DNA of 64,000 nucleotides, taken from assembly GCF_003031585.1 (NCBI RefSeq), contig NZ_PWAA01000061.1:1-64000 (forward strand), written 5' to 3'. Below, one piece after another: positions 19,730 to 39,783 of this stretch (within the stretch, counting starts at the first letter, position 1; every line of letters starts with the position of its first letter). The translations under genes and the position numbers were made by a program. The DNA is from Thalassobius sp. I31.1 (GTDB taxonomy: Bacteria; Pseudomonadota; Alphaproteobacteria; Rhodobacterales; Rhodobacteraceae). The notes beneath the pieces are model-generated. The model did no database searches, was not told the DNA's origin, and saw nothing but the letters and a program-made list of their open reading frames with translations.

Positions 19730-19769
19730 GCATGCCCCTTTTCAATCGCGAAGCACACACTTATATAAC

Positions 19770-20092
19770 ACCTGTCCCTCGGGACTATGAACATAAACGC
19801 GCTCGTAATAAGCGGATCGGACCCGGGGGCGGTACCCGGCGACTCCACCACCATCCTTCATTTGAGGACTTTGGGGTCGAAACAGGATCGACGGACGTCT
19901 AAAGGGGTTAGCTTTGTTTCGGTGAGATACCACCGTTATCGGTTCGATTTAAGCTAGTTGCAAATGACAACAAAGCTCCGGCAATGGCTCTGGCTGCGTA
20001 AGCAGTTCGGGTCGCCGAAACTAAGCCCCTTCGCCTAGCCGCGTAGGGCGGGGTTCGCAGGTACCTGGCAACAGAAACCTGCACTTTCACTC
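19770..20092 (+). ncRNA. ssrA: tmRNA, permuted two-piece type
   Basis: This is the circularly permuted alphaproteobacterial form. The acceptor piece comes first and ends with the T-arm and CCA at about 19850 (GGCGACTCCACCA). A short spacer follows, and the coding piece begins at 19873 with GGGGTCG, which pairs with CGACTCC of the acceptor end. The tag frame at 19960-20001 encodes ANDNKAPAMALAA and a TAA stop. tmRNA rescues stalled ribosomes and marks the product for ClpXP. The outer boundaries (about 19770 and 20092) are estimates; the acceptor pairing and tag are certain. Confidence 0.93.
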
Positions 20093-36800: not shown

Positions 36801-37844
36801 CTATCGGGAAAAATCAGTGATCACGGCCACACCCGGCGGGGTGAGACCATTGAAGGCTGCAACTTCGTCGCTGGCCTGTGAGAGGGTGATTTCGCGCGCA
36901 ACAAGGGGGGAAAGATCCACCTGCCCCGCGTCAATCATGTTCAAAAGAGAAGGATAACGCCAGCCCGGCATGCCGCGCGTGCCAAACAGCGCAAGCTGCC
37001 CGGAATACAGCGCATCCATCGGCAGGGTCATTTCCGTATGTTTGCCCGCAGGCATGCCCACCTGAACCATCCGGCCCAGTTTGCGCAGGCATTGCATGGC
37101 GGCACGTGTGGTGGCCTCAATCCCCAGGGCTTCAATCGCCACATGCGCCCCGCCCCCGGTCAGATCGCGGATGGCGGCAGGCGCATCGGCCTCTGCGGAA
37201 TTCACCACGTGATCCGCGCCCAGGGTTTTGGCAAAGCTCAGTTTTTCCGGCACGATATCAACACAAATAACCCGCGCCCCAATGGCTTTCGCCAGCAAAA
37301 GCGCAGACAGGCCAACGCCCCCCGTGCCAAACACCGCAACCCATTCGCCAGGGGCCAGTCCTGCACGATCCGTCAGCGCATGCCAGGCGGTGGTTGTACG
37401 ACAACCAAGCGCTGCGGCAAGTGTCACATCAATGCTGTCCGGCAGACGCGCCAGATTGCCATCGGCCTGAGGCACCGCGATATATTCCGCAAAAGCGCCG
37501 GGATGGGTGAAACCAGGCACAGCCTGGGTCGGACAGGTTGTCTGATGACCCGCGGCGCAGGACGGGCAACGGTTACAGGCCAGGATAAAAGGCGCAATCA
37601 CGCGATCTCCGACCTTCCAGTCCCGACACTGTGCGCCGGCCTCGATCACTTCACCGCAATATTCATGCCCCGGGATCTGGCCCGGTTTGACATCGGGATC
37701 AGAGCCATTCCAGGCATGCCAGTCAGATCGGCAAACCCCACAGGCCAGCACCCGCAACACAACACCGTCCACAGGGCAGACAGTATCTGCAACCTGACCA
37801 AGGGTCAGAGGGGCATTAAACTCTGTGATCTGCGCTGCAAGCAT
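36801..37844 (-). CDS. Zinc-dependent alcohol dehydrogenase
   Basis: A 347-residue MDR-family dehydrogenase. The catalytic-zinc ligands are in 'CGVCRSDWHAW' and 'GHEYCGEV', the structural-zinc cysteines in 'CNRCPSCAAGHQTTC', and the NAD(P) site in 'VFGTGGVGLSALLLAK'. The substrate is unknown; it resembles polyol or threonine-type dehydrogenases. The ATG at 37844 fits family length; a GTG 27 codons earlier is possible. It stands between the RT gene (91 bp upstream) and purQ (9 bp downstream), which suggests cotranscription. It could have arrived together with the RT. Confidence 0.88.
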   Translation of the reverse strand: MLAAQITEFNAPLTLGQVADTVCPVDGVVLRVLACGVCRSDWHAWNGSDPDVKPGQIPGHEYCGEVIEAGAQCRDWKVGDRVIAPFILACNRCPSCAAGHQTTCPTQAVPGFTHPGAFAEYIAVPQADGNLARLPDSIDVTLAAALGCRTTTAWHALTDRAGLAPGEWVAVFGTGGVGLSALLLAKAIGARVICVDIVPEKLSFAKTLGADHVVNSAEADAPAAIRDLTGGGAHVAIEALGIEATTRAAMQCLRKLGRMVQVGMPAGKHTEMTLPMDALYSGQLALFGTRGMPGWRYPSLLNMIDAGQVDLSPLVAREITLSQASDEVAAFNGLTPPGVAVITDFSR

Positions 37845-37934
37845 TGCGTGTAAACCGCCAGGGATCTGTGAAGACTTGCGGGCGGCATAGACTGTGGAAG
37901 GCGTGGGATCAAGAGAAGATACCACGCGCGCGGG

Positions 37935-39236
37935 CTATGCTGTGATTTTCTGCGCCTCTGCCCACCCCAGAAGCGTTAACAGTTTCTCCCCCCGTGCAGG
38001 GTTAAGATGGCGGAGCCACTGAATACGGCCGATCAGCCGGGCGCGGTAATGCGGATCAGAAAGACGCAGATCACCGGGCCTGCCACAGGCGTGAATTTCG
38101 GCCTTCAGCTGATCAAATTCAGCCCGCCGCATATTCAGATGCGCATTCACGACAATACCGGTCACCACCTGCCGTCCGCCCGACGGCATCACCCGGGCTT
38201 TCCCGGGATTGCTGCGAAACCCTTCATCCCGAATGATCTCGGGCACCAATTTCAAAAGGCCCCGGCCAAGGCCCGCCTGTCCGGAAAACGTCAGATCGTC
38301 GGCGTATCGCGTGTAGCTTGCCCCAAGTTTTGCGGAGAGGGCGTTCAGGCGGCAATCAAGATTGAACAACAGAATATCCGCAAGCGCAGGGGACGTGGGT
38401 GCGCCCTGGGGCAGATGCGGAATGCGGTAAAGCTGCCGCATCGCGAAAGGAAACTGTCCCCGCACATCAGGTGCCGTTTCTGTTGTGCACAGCCCCGCAA
38501 GCAATCGTGTCACGGCTTCGGGATAGCCCAGATGGCGAAACACACCAAAGACCCGTGAAAAAGACACAGAGGGAAAGAAATCAGCCAGATCAAAACAAAC
38601 AACTTCATCGTGACCGCAATGCAGGCGTGCCGCATCCGCGCATCCCTTGTCCGGGGCGAACCCATAAGCGGCCTCATGCACCGGAATGTGACGCAAAATC
38701 CCTTGCAGGATTTGTCGTTGTACAGCTTTCAACTGCGATTTCGGTGCCTCAATCAGGCGAAGACCACCGGATTTTTTAGGCTCAGCAACAGCGTGATAGT
38801 GCCGAATGGTTCTGTAGGCATGGCAGGCATAGCGCCCATCCACATCCGCAAGATAGTTCAGACGATCCACCGGCACTGGCAACCAAGCCGCAAAATCGCC
38901 CGGCGTATCCAGATGTGGCACCTCCGGCCGGCCCACCCCGGATGCAGGCTGCATCCGCGTTTCTGTCAGCACCGGCGCCGGCCAGATCGCTTTCTTCGCG
39001 CAGTGACGATAGAGGCGTTCAAATGTGGGCCTGTCACGCAAGCGCACCACCAACTGCCGTTCCGGCGGGGCAACAGGGCCGGGAAAGATTTGCAAAAGCT
39101 CGGCGGCAAGCCGTTCCGACAGGGCCTTTTGCGGCCCGGGCAATCGCTGCAACAGGCATTGCGACAGCTCTGTCTCTGACCAGCGGCGTGCCAGCAAAGA
39201 TGGGGCAAGGCTTAATGCAAATTGTGTCCGGTTCAT
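37935..39236 (-). CDS. Retron-type reverse transcriptase
   Basis: A 433-residue RNA-directed DNA polymerase. Residues 1-125 form an N-terminal extension that I cannot assign. RT motifs follow in order: 'YHAVAEPKKSGGLRLIEAP' (about 147-165), 'CFDLADFFPS' (214-223), 'PQGAPTSPALA' (276-286), and the catalytic YADD at 311-314 in 'YTRYADDLTFSG'. A retron-like VTG (358-360) lies in 'RQVVTGIVVN'. There is no maturase or endonuclease domain, which argues against a group II intron. The ATG at 39236 is chosen because upstream codons overlap a hairpin-rich leader. Retrons usually act in phage defence; this role is inferred. Confidence 0.88.
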   Translation of the reverse strand: MNRTQFALSLAPSLLARRWSETELSQCLLQRLPGPQKALSERLAAELLQIFPGPVAPPERQLVVRLRDRPTFERLYRHCAKKAIWPAPVLTETRMQPASGVGRPEVPHLDTPGDFAAWLPVPVDRLNYLADVDGRYACHAYRTIRHYHAVAEPKKSGGLRLIEAPKSQLKAVQRQILQGILRHIPVHEAAYGFAPDKGCADAARLHCGHDEVVCFDLADFFPSVSFSRVFGVFRHLGYPEAVTRLLAGLCTTETAPDVRGQFPFAMRQLYRIPHLPQGAPTSPALADILLFNLDCRLNALSAKLGASYTRYADDLTFSGQAGLGRGLLKLVPEIIRDEGFRSNPGKARVMPSGGRQVVTGIVVNAHLNMRRAEFDQLKAEIHACGRPGDLRLSDPHYRARLIGRIQWLRHLNPARGEKLLTLLGWAEAQKITA

Positions 39237-39480
39237 GATCCGAATTCCAGAAAGTCTAAATAAAATAAAGAAACACAACCAAACAAAACGCAGCACACGA
39301 TTTCCGCCAACCTGGTTCTGCGTGCCGGGAGGTGGGTGAAAGCCCACGCGCCGGCGCGCCCCGAATTGCATCGTATTAAAATCAGACGGGGATGCCCCGC
39401 CCTGCGCCCTTAACAGGCACGTTCCGGAAACCGGCACTGCCCTCTGTATCTGCACCGAAATGGTGTAATTTCAAAGATAT
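39237..39480 (-). ncRNA. Candidate msr-msd leader of the reverse transcriptase
   Basis: A 244-bp non-coding region between the purS terminator and the RT start. Structures seen are CGGGG/CCCCG (39387-39399), palindrome CGCGCCGGCGCG (39347-39358), GTGGG/CCCAC (39332-39347) and CACC/GGTG near 39455-39465. GTGCCGG and CCGGCAC segments about 110 bp apart could form an outer stem. This matches where a retron RNA template would lie, but no template boundaries or branching G are provable here. Confidence 0.4.
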
Positions 39481-39489
39481 TTTTCCAAC

Positions 39490-39522
39490 AAAAAAGCCGC
39501 CCCGGACGGGGCGGCTTTTTTT
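39490..39522. terminator. Bidirectional terminator after purS
   Basis: GCCGCCCC (39496-39503) and GGGGCGGC (39508-39515) pair, flanked by an A-run and a T-run. It separates the purC-purS transcript from the RT region. Confidence 0.92.
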
Positions 39523-39543
39523 ATTCTGCGTTGAAACTATGTC

Positions 39544-39783
39544 TCAGACGATTTCAACCGTGTAGCTTTCGATCACGGTGTTCGCCAGAAGCTTTTCACA
39601 CATGTCTTTGACGCTTGCTTCGGCCTTTGCGGCGTCGGTTTCTGCGAGGTCCAGTTCAATCACCTTGCCCTGACGCACACCGTCGACACCGTCAAACCCC
39701 AGCGCACCCAGCGCATGACGCACGGCGTCGCCTTGTGGGTCAAGAACACCATTTTTCAGCATAATATGAACACGGGCTTTCAT
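39544..39783 (-). CDS. purS: Phosphoribosylformylglycinamidine synthase subunit PurS
   Basis: A 79-residue small subunit that bridges PurL and PurQ in purine synthesis. 'KARVHIMLKNGVLDPQGDAV' at the N-terminus and the 'VRQGKVIELDL' strand are canonical, and the length is normal. It follows purC by 11 bp on the same strand with an AAGG site. It ends in a strong terminator, so purQ, which often follows directly, is not on this transcript. Confidence 0.94.
   Translation of the reverse strand: MKARVHIMLKNGVLDPQGDAVRHALGALGFDGVDGVRQGKVIELDLAETDAAKAEASVKDMCEKLLANTVIESYTVEIV

Follow-up and report, generated by a model that had tools for sequence, protein, structure and literature searches.

We propose that the reverse transcriptase (RT) gene at 37,935-39,236, on the minus strand of the window (the whole 64,000-nucleotide stretch of DNA that was analysed), is part of a retron of the clade that PADLOC models as RT_other and RT_outgroup, and that this retron would make msDNA, a reading that we hold on sequence grounds with a probability of about 0.85. 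It is drawn from retron motifs in the protein, an upstream msr-msd, the co-occurrence of the RNA with the protein, purifying selection and the lack of a partner gene. An earlier note on this DNA had already called the protein a retron-type RT, and this is borne out by its position inside the retron RTs in phylogenetic trees, by the closest solved structures, which are those of retron RTs, and by the structured RNA; the msr-msd RNA itself, at 39,285-39,444, had been overlooked.

The gene encodes 433 amino acids from an ATG at 39,236, as indicated by the list of open reading frames, profile matches and an alignment (A1). Mechanical ORF calling gives 506 amino acids from a GTG start (37,935-39,455), because the RT frame is open upstream through the RNA, and alignment identifies the ATG as the conserved start. 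The RT core (residues 111-433; 37,938-38,906, minus strand) was delimited by Pfam, alignment and structure comparison, and the motifs listed in the earlier note lie as follows in the 433-residue frame: QGAPTSP at residues 277-283, YADD at 311-314 (codons 38,295-38,306, minus strand) and VTG at 358-360 within RQVVTGIVVN, such that YxDD, QGxPxSP and the retron VTG motif are all present. In a congener (G002, L002:1501-2799) YVDD replaces YADD in an RT frame that is otherwise open. At the position of NAxxH, which we take to be the retron X motif, residues 202-206 read AARLH, with A and H retained and N not, and H206 is invariant across 66 aligned rows. A passage of PMC4244168 describes the A and N of this motif as variable among retrons.

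The sole Pfam match on the 433-residue protein is RVT_1 (residues 153-350), and the top NCBIfam model is that of retron St85, at 187 bits and under its cut-off of 235. The NCBIfam group II RT/maturase model (48 bits against a cut-off of 300) and the Drt2 and Drt3a models (31.6 against 390 and 12.9 against 200) place the protein neither among the maturases nor among the DRTs, and in the PADLOC library, through which the UG classes were checked, the best 25 rows are retron RTs throughout. Compared with G002 the RT gene has a Ka/Ks of 0.17, with 0.19 for the N-terminal and 0.15 for the RT part (G000 versus G002), and by these ratios both parts of the protein are under purifying selection. A full-length RT is present in 15 of 394 genomes of Rhodobacteraceae, and 13 other genera of the family have full-length homologues with 40-50% identity.

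A maximum-likelihood tree of 45 RT cores recovered all 26 rows of the RT clade as monophyletic (100/100), joined the retron rows (100/100) against five group II RTs, and kept the clade apart from the rows of types III-A, XII and XIII; a quick 60-row tree agreed with it. Tree placement among non-retron RTs, which the earlier note had named as evidence against its reading, was thus not found with the outgroups used, namely group II RTs and, in the 60-row tree only, one DRT9, the trees including no DGR or Abi RTs. Two loci (L202 and L204) had no usable frame, six (L027, L029, L030, L196, L203 and L205) were omitted from the 45-core tree, and the type labels of L017, L018, L020 and L026 were assigned by resemblance rather than by PADLOC. 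Structure comparison likewise gave retron RTs in its first 14 rows, with Ec86 at the top followed by Ec67, Ec78/Eco7, Eco8 and Ec83, as against Z scores of 20.3 for a group II-like RT and 19 for DGR RTs. In Ec86 the RNA lies ahead of the RT, the same order as here. The RT of Ec86 (Eco1) is the closest solved structure (Z 28.4 over 300 residues, 2.7 Å), but Ec86 has an effector (title of 7v9x) and a 314-residue chain, whereas the protein described here has 433 residues and no effector in cis.

The closest catalogued systems are the PADLOC models RT_other (PDLC02949) and RT_outgroup (PDLC03740, described as a retron), which give the window protein its best full-length matches (416 and 394 bits). 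Both cover the whole protein including its N-terminal extension and both match all 66 rows of our alignment A3, hence the RT itself is already catalogued, while neither entry names a type, an effector or an RNA. The window protein scores below an RT from Pyxidicoccus (L072, 546 bits), an organism that carries three retron-like RTs, of which L072 belongs to the same clade as the window RT, L209 is assigned to RT_XIII by score (515 bits) and falls with type XIII in the tree (89/93), and L208 likewise has RT_XIII as its best model (388 bits) but could not be placed in the tree. Type XIII retrons (RT_XIII) and the 483-residue L209 resemble the window protein in being retron RTs with a long N-terminal extension. 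However, type XIII forms a separate clade in the 45-core tree that excludes the window RT, RT_XIII scores the window protein 107 bits below RT_other, a profile comparison of the type XIII and clade N-termini gave a probability of 0.12% (with only three type XIII rows), and the covariance model R1 described below had no match on L208 or L209. We take L209 to be Mx162-like. The section of PMC6868368 on myxococcal RTs attributes an N-terminal extension of unknown function to Mx162, Mx65, Sa163 and Ne144. A long near-palindromic stretch with below-threshold Rfam microRNA matches lies upstream of the L209 RT (1477-2925) and is probably its msd. Three type XIII-like RTs from Rhodobacteraceae (L016:847-2832, L017:1051-2835 and L018:1051-2907, of which only L016 was scored with PADLOC) have open frames of 595-662 amino acids, and their C-terminal extension ends in hydrophobic, membrane-like segments that could be a fused membrane effector. 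As for retrons with a lone RT, the portion of PMC12548924 on Retron-Bth1 reports an RT without an effector gene, and a passage of PMC8867640 mentions some retrons with no clear effector-gene association. By that account Bth1, likewise a lone RT, is extrachromosomal and interrupted by a group II intron, unlike the window RT, which lies between ordinary genes on a genome contig and has relatives in six phyla among the best 80 of 562 loci.

The RNA that lies directly before the RT on the same strand (39,285-39,444, minus strand, 160 nt) is, judging from folds, covariation and a covariance model, the msr-msd of a retron. Read from 39,444 to 39,285 it folds such that a long stem closes over two hairpins and a third, long one. 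The closing stem consists of an a1 arm (39,425-39,444) and an a2 arm (39,286-39,306), both located by a pairing test and the single-sequence fold, and the first base past the a1 stem, at 39,424, is by its position the candidate branching guanosine. The first msr hairpin (39,404-39,420) is variable and appears in single-sequence folds only, outside the RNAalifold consensus, the second (39,384-39,402), with a GGGG-3nt-CCCC core, is the most conserved element, and the msd hairpin (39,320-39,359) shows covariation and forms part of the predicted reverse-transcribed template, the cDNA probably extending from about 39,307 to 39,383. All of these elements are on the minus strand, as is the terminator-like hairpin after the purS-like gene (39,490-39,521) that bounds the retron on its 5' side.

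The absence of a structured RNA next to homologues had also been named in advance as evidence against a retron, and the reverse was found, as the same architecture precedes the RT start in 15 Rhodobacteraceae loci, that of the window included. RNAalifold on a plain MAFFT alignment of the 15 sequences returned 20 pairs, all in hairpin 2 and the msd hairpin, and 13 of these show changes on both sides. The closing stem, which is absent from that consensus, is supported by the single-sequence folds and the pairing test: its arms differ in sequence among loci but remain complementary, the own a2 arm was the best partner of a1 in 10 of 14 loci (second in two and fourth in two), and the mean pairing energy was −36.3 kcal/mol for own against −25.9 kcal/mol for crossed arms over the 14 loci. 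An a1/a2 inverted repeat and hairpins, as expected of a retron, are therefore present next to the RT. Between G000 and G002 the RNA differs at three of 160 sites.

The covariance model R1 was built from the 15 Rhodobacteraceae copies and applied to 80 loci from public genomes that were picked by their RT (the best 80 of 562). Matches directly upstream of the RT were found in 62 of these 80 loci at E ≤ 0.01 and in 69 at E ≤ 1; after removal of six loci whose genome or species is already represented in the model the counts were 56 and 63 of 74 (still from the best 80 of 562). By record titles, the RNA-positive loci at E ≤ 0.01 (best 80 of 562) come from Pseudomonadota, Planctomycetota, Acidobacteriota, Actinomycetota, Myxococcota and Gemmatimonadota. 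One locus titled as an Exiguobacterium profundum metagenome-assembled genome (L046) has a retron and neighbours that are Rhodobacterales-like, and its title looks wrong. Eleven of the 80 loci (best 80 of 562) had no R1 match at E ≤ 1, two of which begin at a contig edge and seven of which possess the N-terminal domain, and none of ten loci with retrons of other types (L016-L025) was matched. R1 also gave reverse-strand matches on the near-palindromic msd among the loci, and one match 5 kb from the RT in L049 (E 0.67). A simple GGGG-N-W-H-CCCC hairpin pattern was present upstream in 60 of 68 loci and in none of 68 control windows (best 80 of 562; six of the 74 loci had too little upstream sequence and were left out, and broken-frame loci, for which the RT position is unsure, were counted). 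In 44 of the 60 loci (best 80 of 562) YCAAG precedes the conserved hairpin, most distant relatives having it near the position of the candidate guanosine, and it resembles the retron branching-guanosine sites TAGC, CAGC, GAGC and others that are given in a part of PMC6868368. The window has no YCAAG; the base past a1 is G39,424 in a different surrounding sequence, and it is for this reason only a proposed branch site.

In Rfam neither a retron family nor any match at gathering score was found on the element or close to it, and eight relatives gave nothing except one unrelated sRNA; 29 below-threshold matches, mostly on the terminator-like hairpin at 39,490-39,521, were taken as chance. A fold of the whole region 39,237-39,540 had a z-score of −3.7, with one of 100 shuffles as stable, but this same hairpin is part of the region, and the value therefore does not count towards the retron RNA by itself. 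A consensus scan for sigma-70 promoters had no match. Elsewhere in the window, an ordinary alphaproteobacterial tmRNA gene lies at 19,735-20,092.

The N-terminal extension was described in the earlier note as about 125 residues with no recognisable domain. An extension does exist, but its boundary has to be redrawn, as prediction of its structure, one of the checks that had been suggested, gave a confident bundle of five helices at residues 3-82, followed by a loop to about residue 110, and assigned the helices at 112-130 to the RT fold. AlphaFold2 with 66 rows modelled the full protein with a pLDDT of 93.7 and a pTM of 0.87, and the N-terminal domain alone with a pLDDT of 80.5. On the basis of this model and profile matches we define a domain of residues 1-82 (38,991-39,236, minus strand) and a loop of residues 83-110 (38,907-38,990, minus strand) in which P97 and P107 are retained. 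The domain is indeed unassigned in Pfam and in the PDB by sequence and by fold, but it is already covered by the PADLOC RT_other and RT_outgroup models. Foldseek found no fold match (best E 0.97); the Ec86-led structure comparison says little about the N-terminus, and the lack of a match does not prove that the fold is new. The best PDB hmmsearch match, a cytochrome construct at E 0.0026 with no stretch passing alone, and the HLA chains from E 0.07 were regarded as noise, and a Pfam phage tail-tube model matched by one of 54 members (E 0.0024) was put down to chance.

The search for homologues with the same N-terminus, also suggested beforehand, yielded profile matches at E ≤ 1e-4 in 74 of the best 80 of 562 loci; 39 of the 80 are themselves in the profile, and of the other 41, 35 matched. 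The six misses (best 80 of 562) are L057, which is explained by a contig edge, L074, in which the domain is absent, and L091, L096, L101 and L105, whose N-terminal part the profile does not recognise and which may be a divergent subgroup; L091, L096 and L105 also have no RNA match. Seventeen loci of other retron types gave no match at E < 0.05, and as far as tested the strong matches are confined to the RT of this clade. Every one of the 66 A3 rows carries the domain, a count that applies to that selection of long frames only: A3 comprises the window, 14 Rhodobacteraceae loci and 51 contig loci, the last taken from 66 long RT frames in those 68 of the 80 contig loci that have an RNA match (less L098), and L074 is among the 15 long-frame loci left out. 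Mean pairwise identity is 0.22 in the N-terminal domain against 0.48 in the RT, the best polar column in residues 1-110 is an arginine at 0.56 while the RT has 21 polar positions conserved at 0.97 or above, and the mean net charge of the domain is +4.9 (sd 5.3) as compared with +16.9 for the RT. The natural exception is L074:5812-7020 from Aeoliella straminimaris (Planctomycetota), in which an intact RNA is directly followed by an RT that lacks the domain. Of 57 loci, 40 allowed the spacing between RNA and RT core to be measured, and L074 has 66 residues ahead of the R160 motif where the remaining 39 have 154-176. A search of the L074 locus for a detached copy of the domain detected none. This single case could be a recent deletion; nonetheless, as L074 keeps the RNA and an open RT frame, the domain is not strictly needed.

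The neighbours of the retron were read from sequence as purS (39,544-39,783), separated from the RT element by the hairpin at 39,490-39,521, an alcohol dehydrogenase (36,801-37,925) and then purQ, which agrees with the earlier statement that no known effector is adjacent. The description of the RT as stand-alone also stands in a wider sample, as none of the 25 largest clusters formed by the flanking ORFs of the best 80 of 562 loci is a conserved partner. These clusters are generic, with ABC transporter-like ORFs near 12 loci (median distance 1.7 kb) and response regulators flanking nine (both best 80 of 562), and synteny is at the level of the genus, with a neighbour read as nadD in five Rhodobacterales loci (best 80 of 562). 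From 20 loci the 40 nearest ORFs were listed and Pfam was run on 20 of them, from 15 loci, with the result that four of the 20 had no match and the others had unrelated metabolic, regulatory, transport and protease domains (sigma-54, ribonucleotide reductase, pirin, HemD/URO-D, mechanosensitive channel, subtilase and others). Pfam found no effector domain within the RT protein. The named retron types have effectors; in the case of the typed tripartite defense retrons (I-XIII) this is an effector gene or a fused domain, and neither was found here in cis.

The RNA, the RT and the N-terminal domain, by their profile matches, occur together. R1 matches 16 of 388 Rhodobacteraceae genomes, 15 of which hold the full-length RT and supplied the model; the sixteenth (G081) is independent of it, and there the end of the contig cuts off the same RT within its N-terminal part. 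Strong matches to the N-terminal profile (E ≤ 8e-22) fall in the same 16 of 388 genomes, and two further matches at 6.6e-4 among the 388 were taken as chance. One congener (G001) has no retron, and a clean empty site was sought there and rejected, since purS precedes other genes and the region is rearranged, which makes the boundary of an insertion unreadable. A mobile origin was also considered and rejected on the plasmid, phage and viral matches. Plasmids gave 14 records at E ≤ 1e-30, two of which cover at least 80% and are both large Burkholderia replicons, phages gave eight records at E ≤ 1e-20, none spanning 80% of the query, and in the viral relatives (best 80 of 196) the matches begin at query residue 79 or later.

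How might such a retron work? From established retron biochemistry, the transcript would fold and the RT would bind the msr hairpins, priming by the 2'-OH of the guanosine that follows a1 would start the cDNA at the a2 side of the msd, and elongation would halt before msr hairpin 2, giving a branched msDNA of about 60-80 nt that would stay bound to the RT. We consider it about an even chance that the N-terminal bundle is a non-enzymatic docking module of this msDNA-RT ribonucleoprotein, one that would hold a factor encoded elsewhere in the genome or organise RT oligomers rather than act as a toxin, and the particle may be kept as a chromosomal sensor or defense element with no toxin in cis. 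Docking is favored because the domain is bound to the clade, fast-evolving, mildly basic, devoid of polar invariants and dispensable in L074, the absence of conserved polar residues and the charge being its foundation. The earlier note had suggested that the extension could be a built-in effector, and a toxin restrained by the msDNA-RT complex is a conceivable role for the domain, as other retrons have fusions to TIR, Toprim or protease domains. PADLOC models of types XI, XII and I-C represent single-gene retrons with a fused domain, no effector gene is conserved nearby (best 80 of 562 loci), and the domain is clade-confined as tested and diverges more than the RT (0.22 versus 0.48). This role nevertheless appears improbable: the top polar column, an arginine at 0.56, contrasts with 21 RT polar positions at 0.97 or above, there is no convincing Pfam or PDB match, and L074 has the RNA and RT without the domain. 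The lack of a conserved polar residue together with L074 argues against an enzymatic effector, and the suggestion is accordingly not supported.

A stronger competitor to docking, although still on the unlikely side, is that the domain is a structural or RNA-binding aid to the making of msDNA in an element that is housekeeping or selfish rather than defensive. Its mean net charge of +4.9 and its presence in 74 of 80 loci (best 80 of 562) would fit such an aid, and a non-defense element would be in keeping with viral loci (best 80 of 196) that never match query residues 1-78, with the failure of all eight phage records to cover 80%, and with a partly conserved synteny beside a nadD-like gene in five loci (best 80 of 562). 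L074 speaks against a needed aid, however, as its RNA is intact and its RT frame open with the domain absent, and the patchy occurrence of the element (15 full-length copies in 394 Rhodobacteraceae genomes) fits poorly with housekeeping. Decay of a defense retron that has lost its effector would account for the missing effector, for the absence of the element from the congener G001 and for the broken RT frame that a frame walk revealed in five of the best 80 of 562 loci, but we regard such a relict as very doubtful given the purifying selection on both protein parts and the few changes in the RNA; moreover, no partner is conserved in 80 loci over six phyla (best 80 of 562), which a single recent loss of an effector does not explain. 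That the protein is a non-retron RT, group II-like or a DRT, beside an ordinary structured leader could be argued from RVT_1, which is common to many RTs, and from the weak matches to the group II and Drt2 models, but it is refuted as far as the sequence tests reported here reach, since the trees, the structure ranking, the PADLOC scores and the covarying msr-msd with its a1/a2 stem leave it hardly any credence.

The RT clade was already known to PADLOC, and the parts of PMC6868368, PMC8867640 and PMC12548924 that concern them put myxococcal N-terminal extensions and effector-less retrons already in print. A shared RNA together with a clade-specific N-terminal domain across phyla was not found in Rfam, Pfam or the literature, while a prior description is possible. 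To our knowledge, those retron functions that are understood depend on an effector encoded next to the RT or fused to it. The clade described here shows no effector, yet its RNA and protein are jointly conserved across six phyla (best 80 of 562). As a tentative proposal, and one that we think somewhat more apt to be wrong than right, it may represent a phylum-spanning chromosomal retron lineage without a cis effector, in which the RNA and the helical domain form an msDNA particle that would control a host factor in trans or serve some purpose besides abortive infection. With the RNA model, the element's bounds and a natural relative that lacks the domain, the role of a toxin-less retron can be tested directly, and this compact RNA-RT pair could be tried for DNA production.
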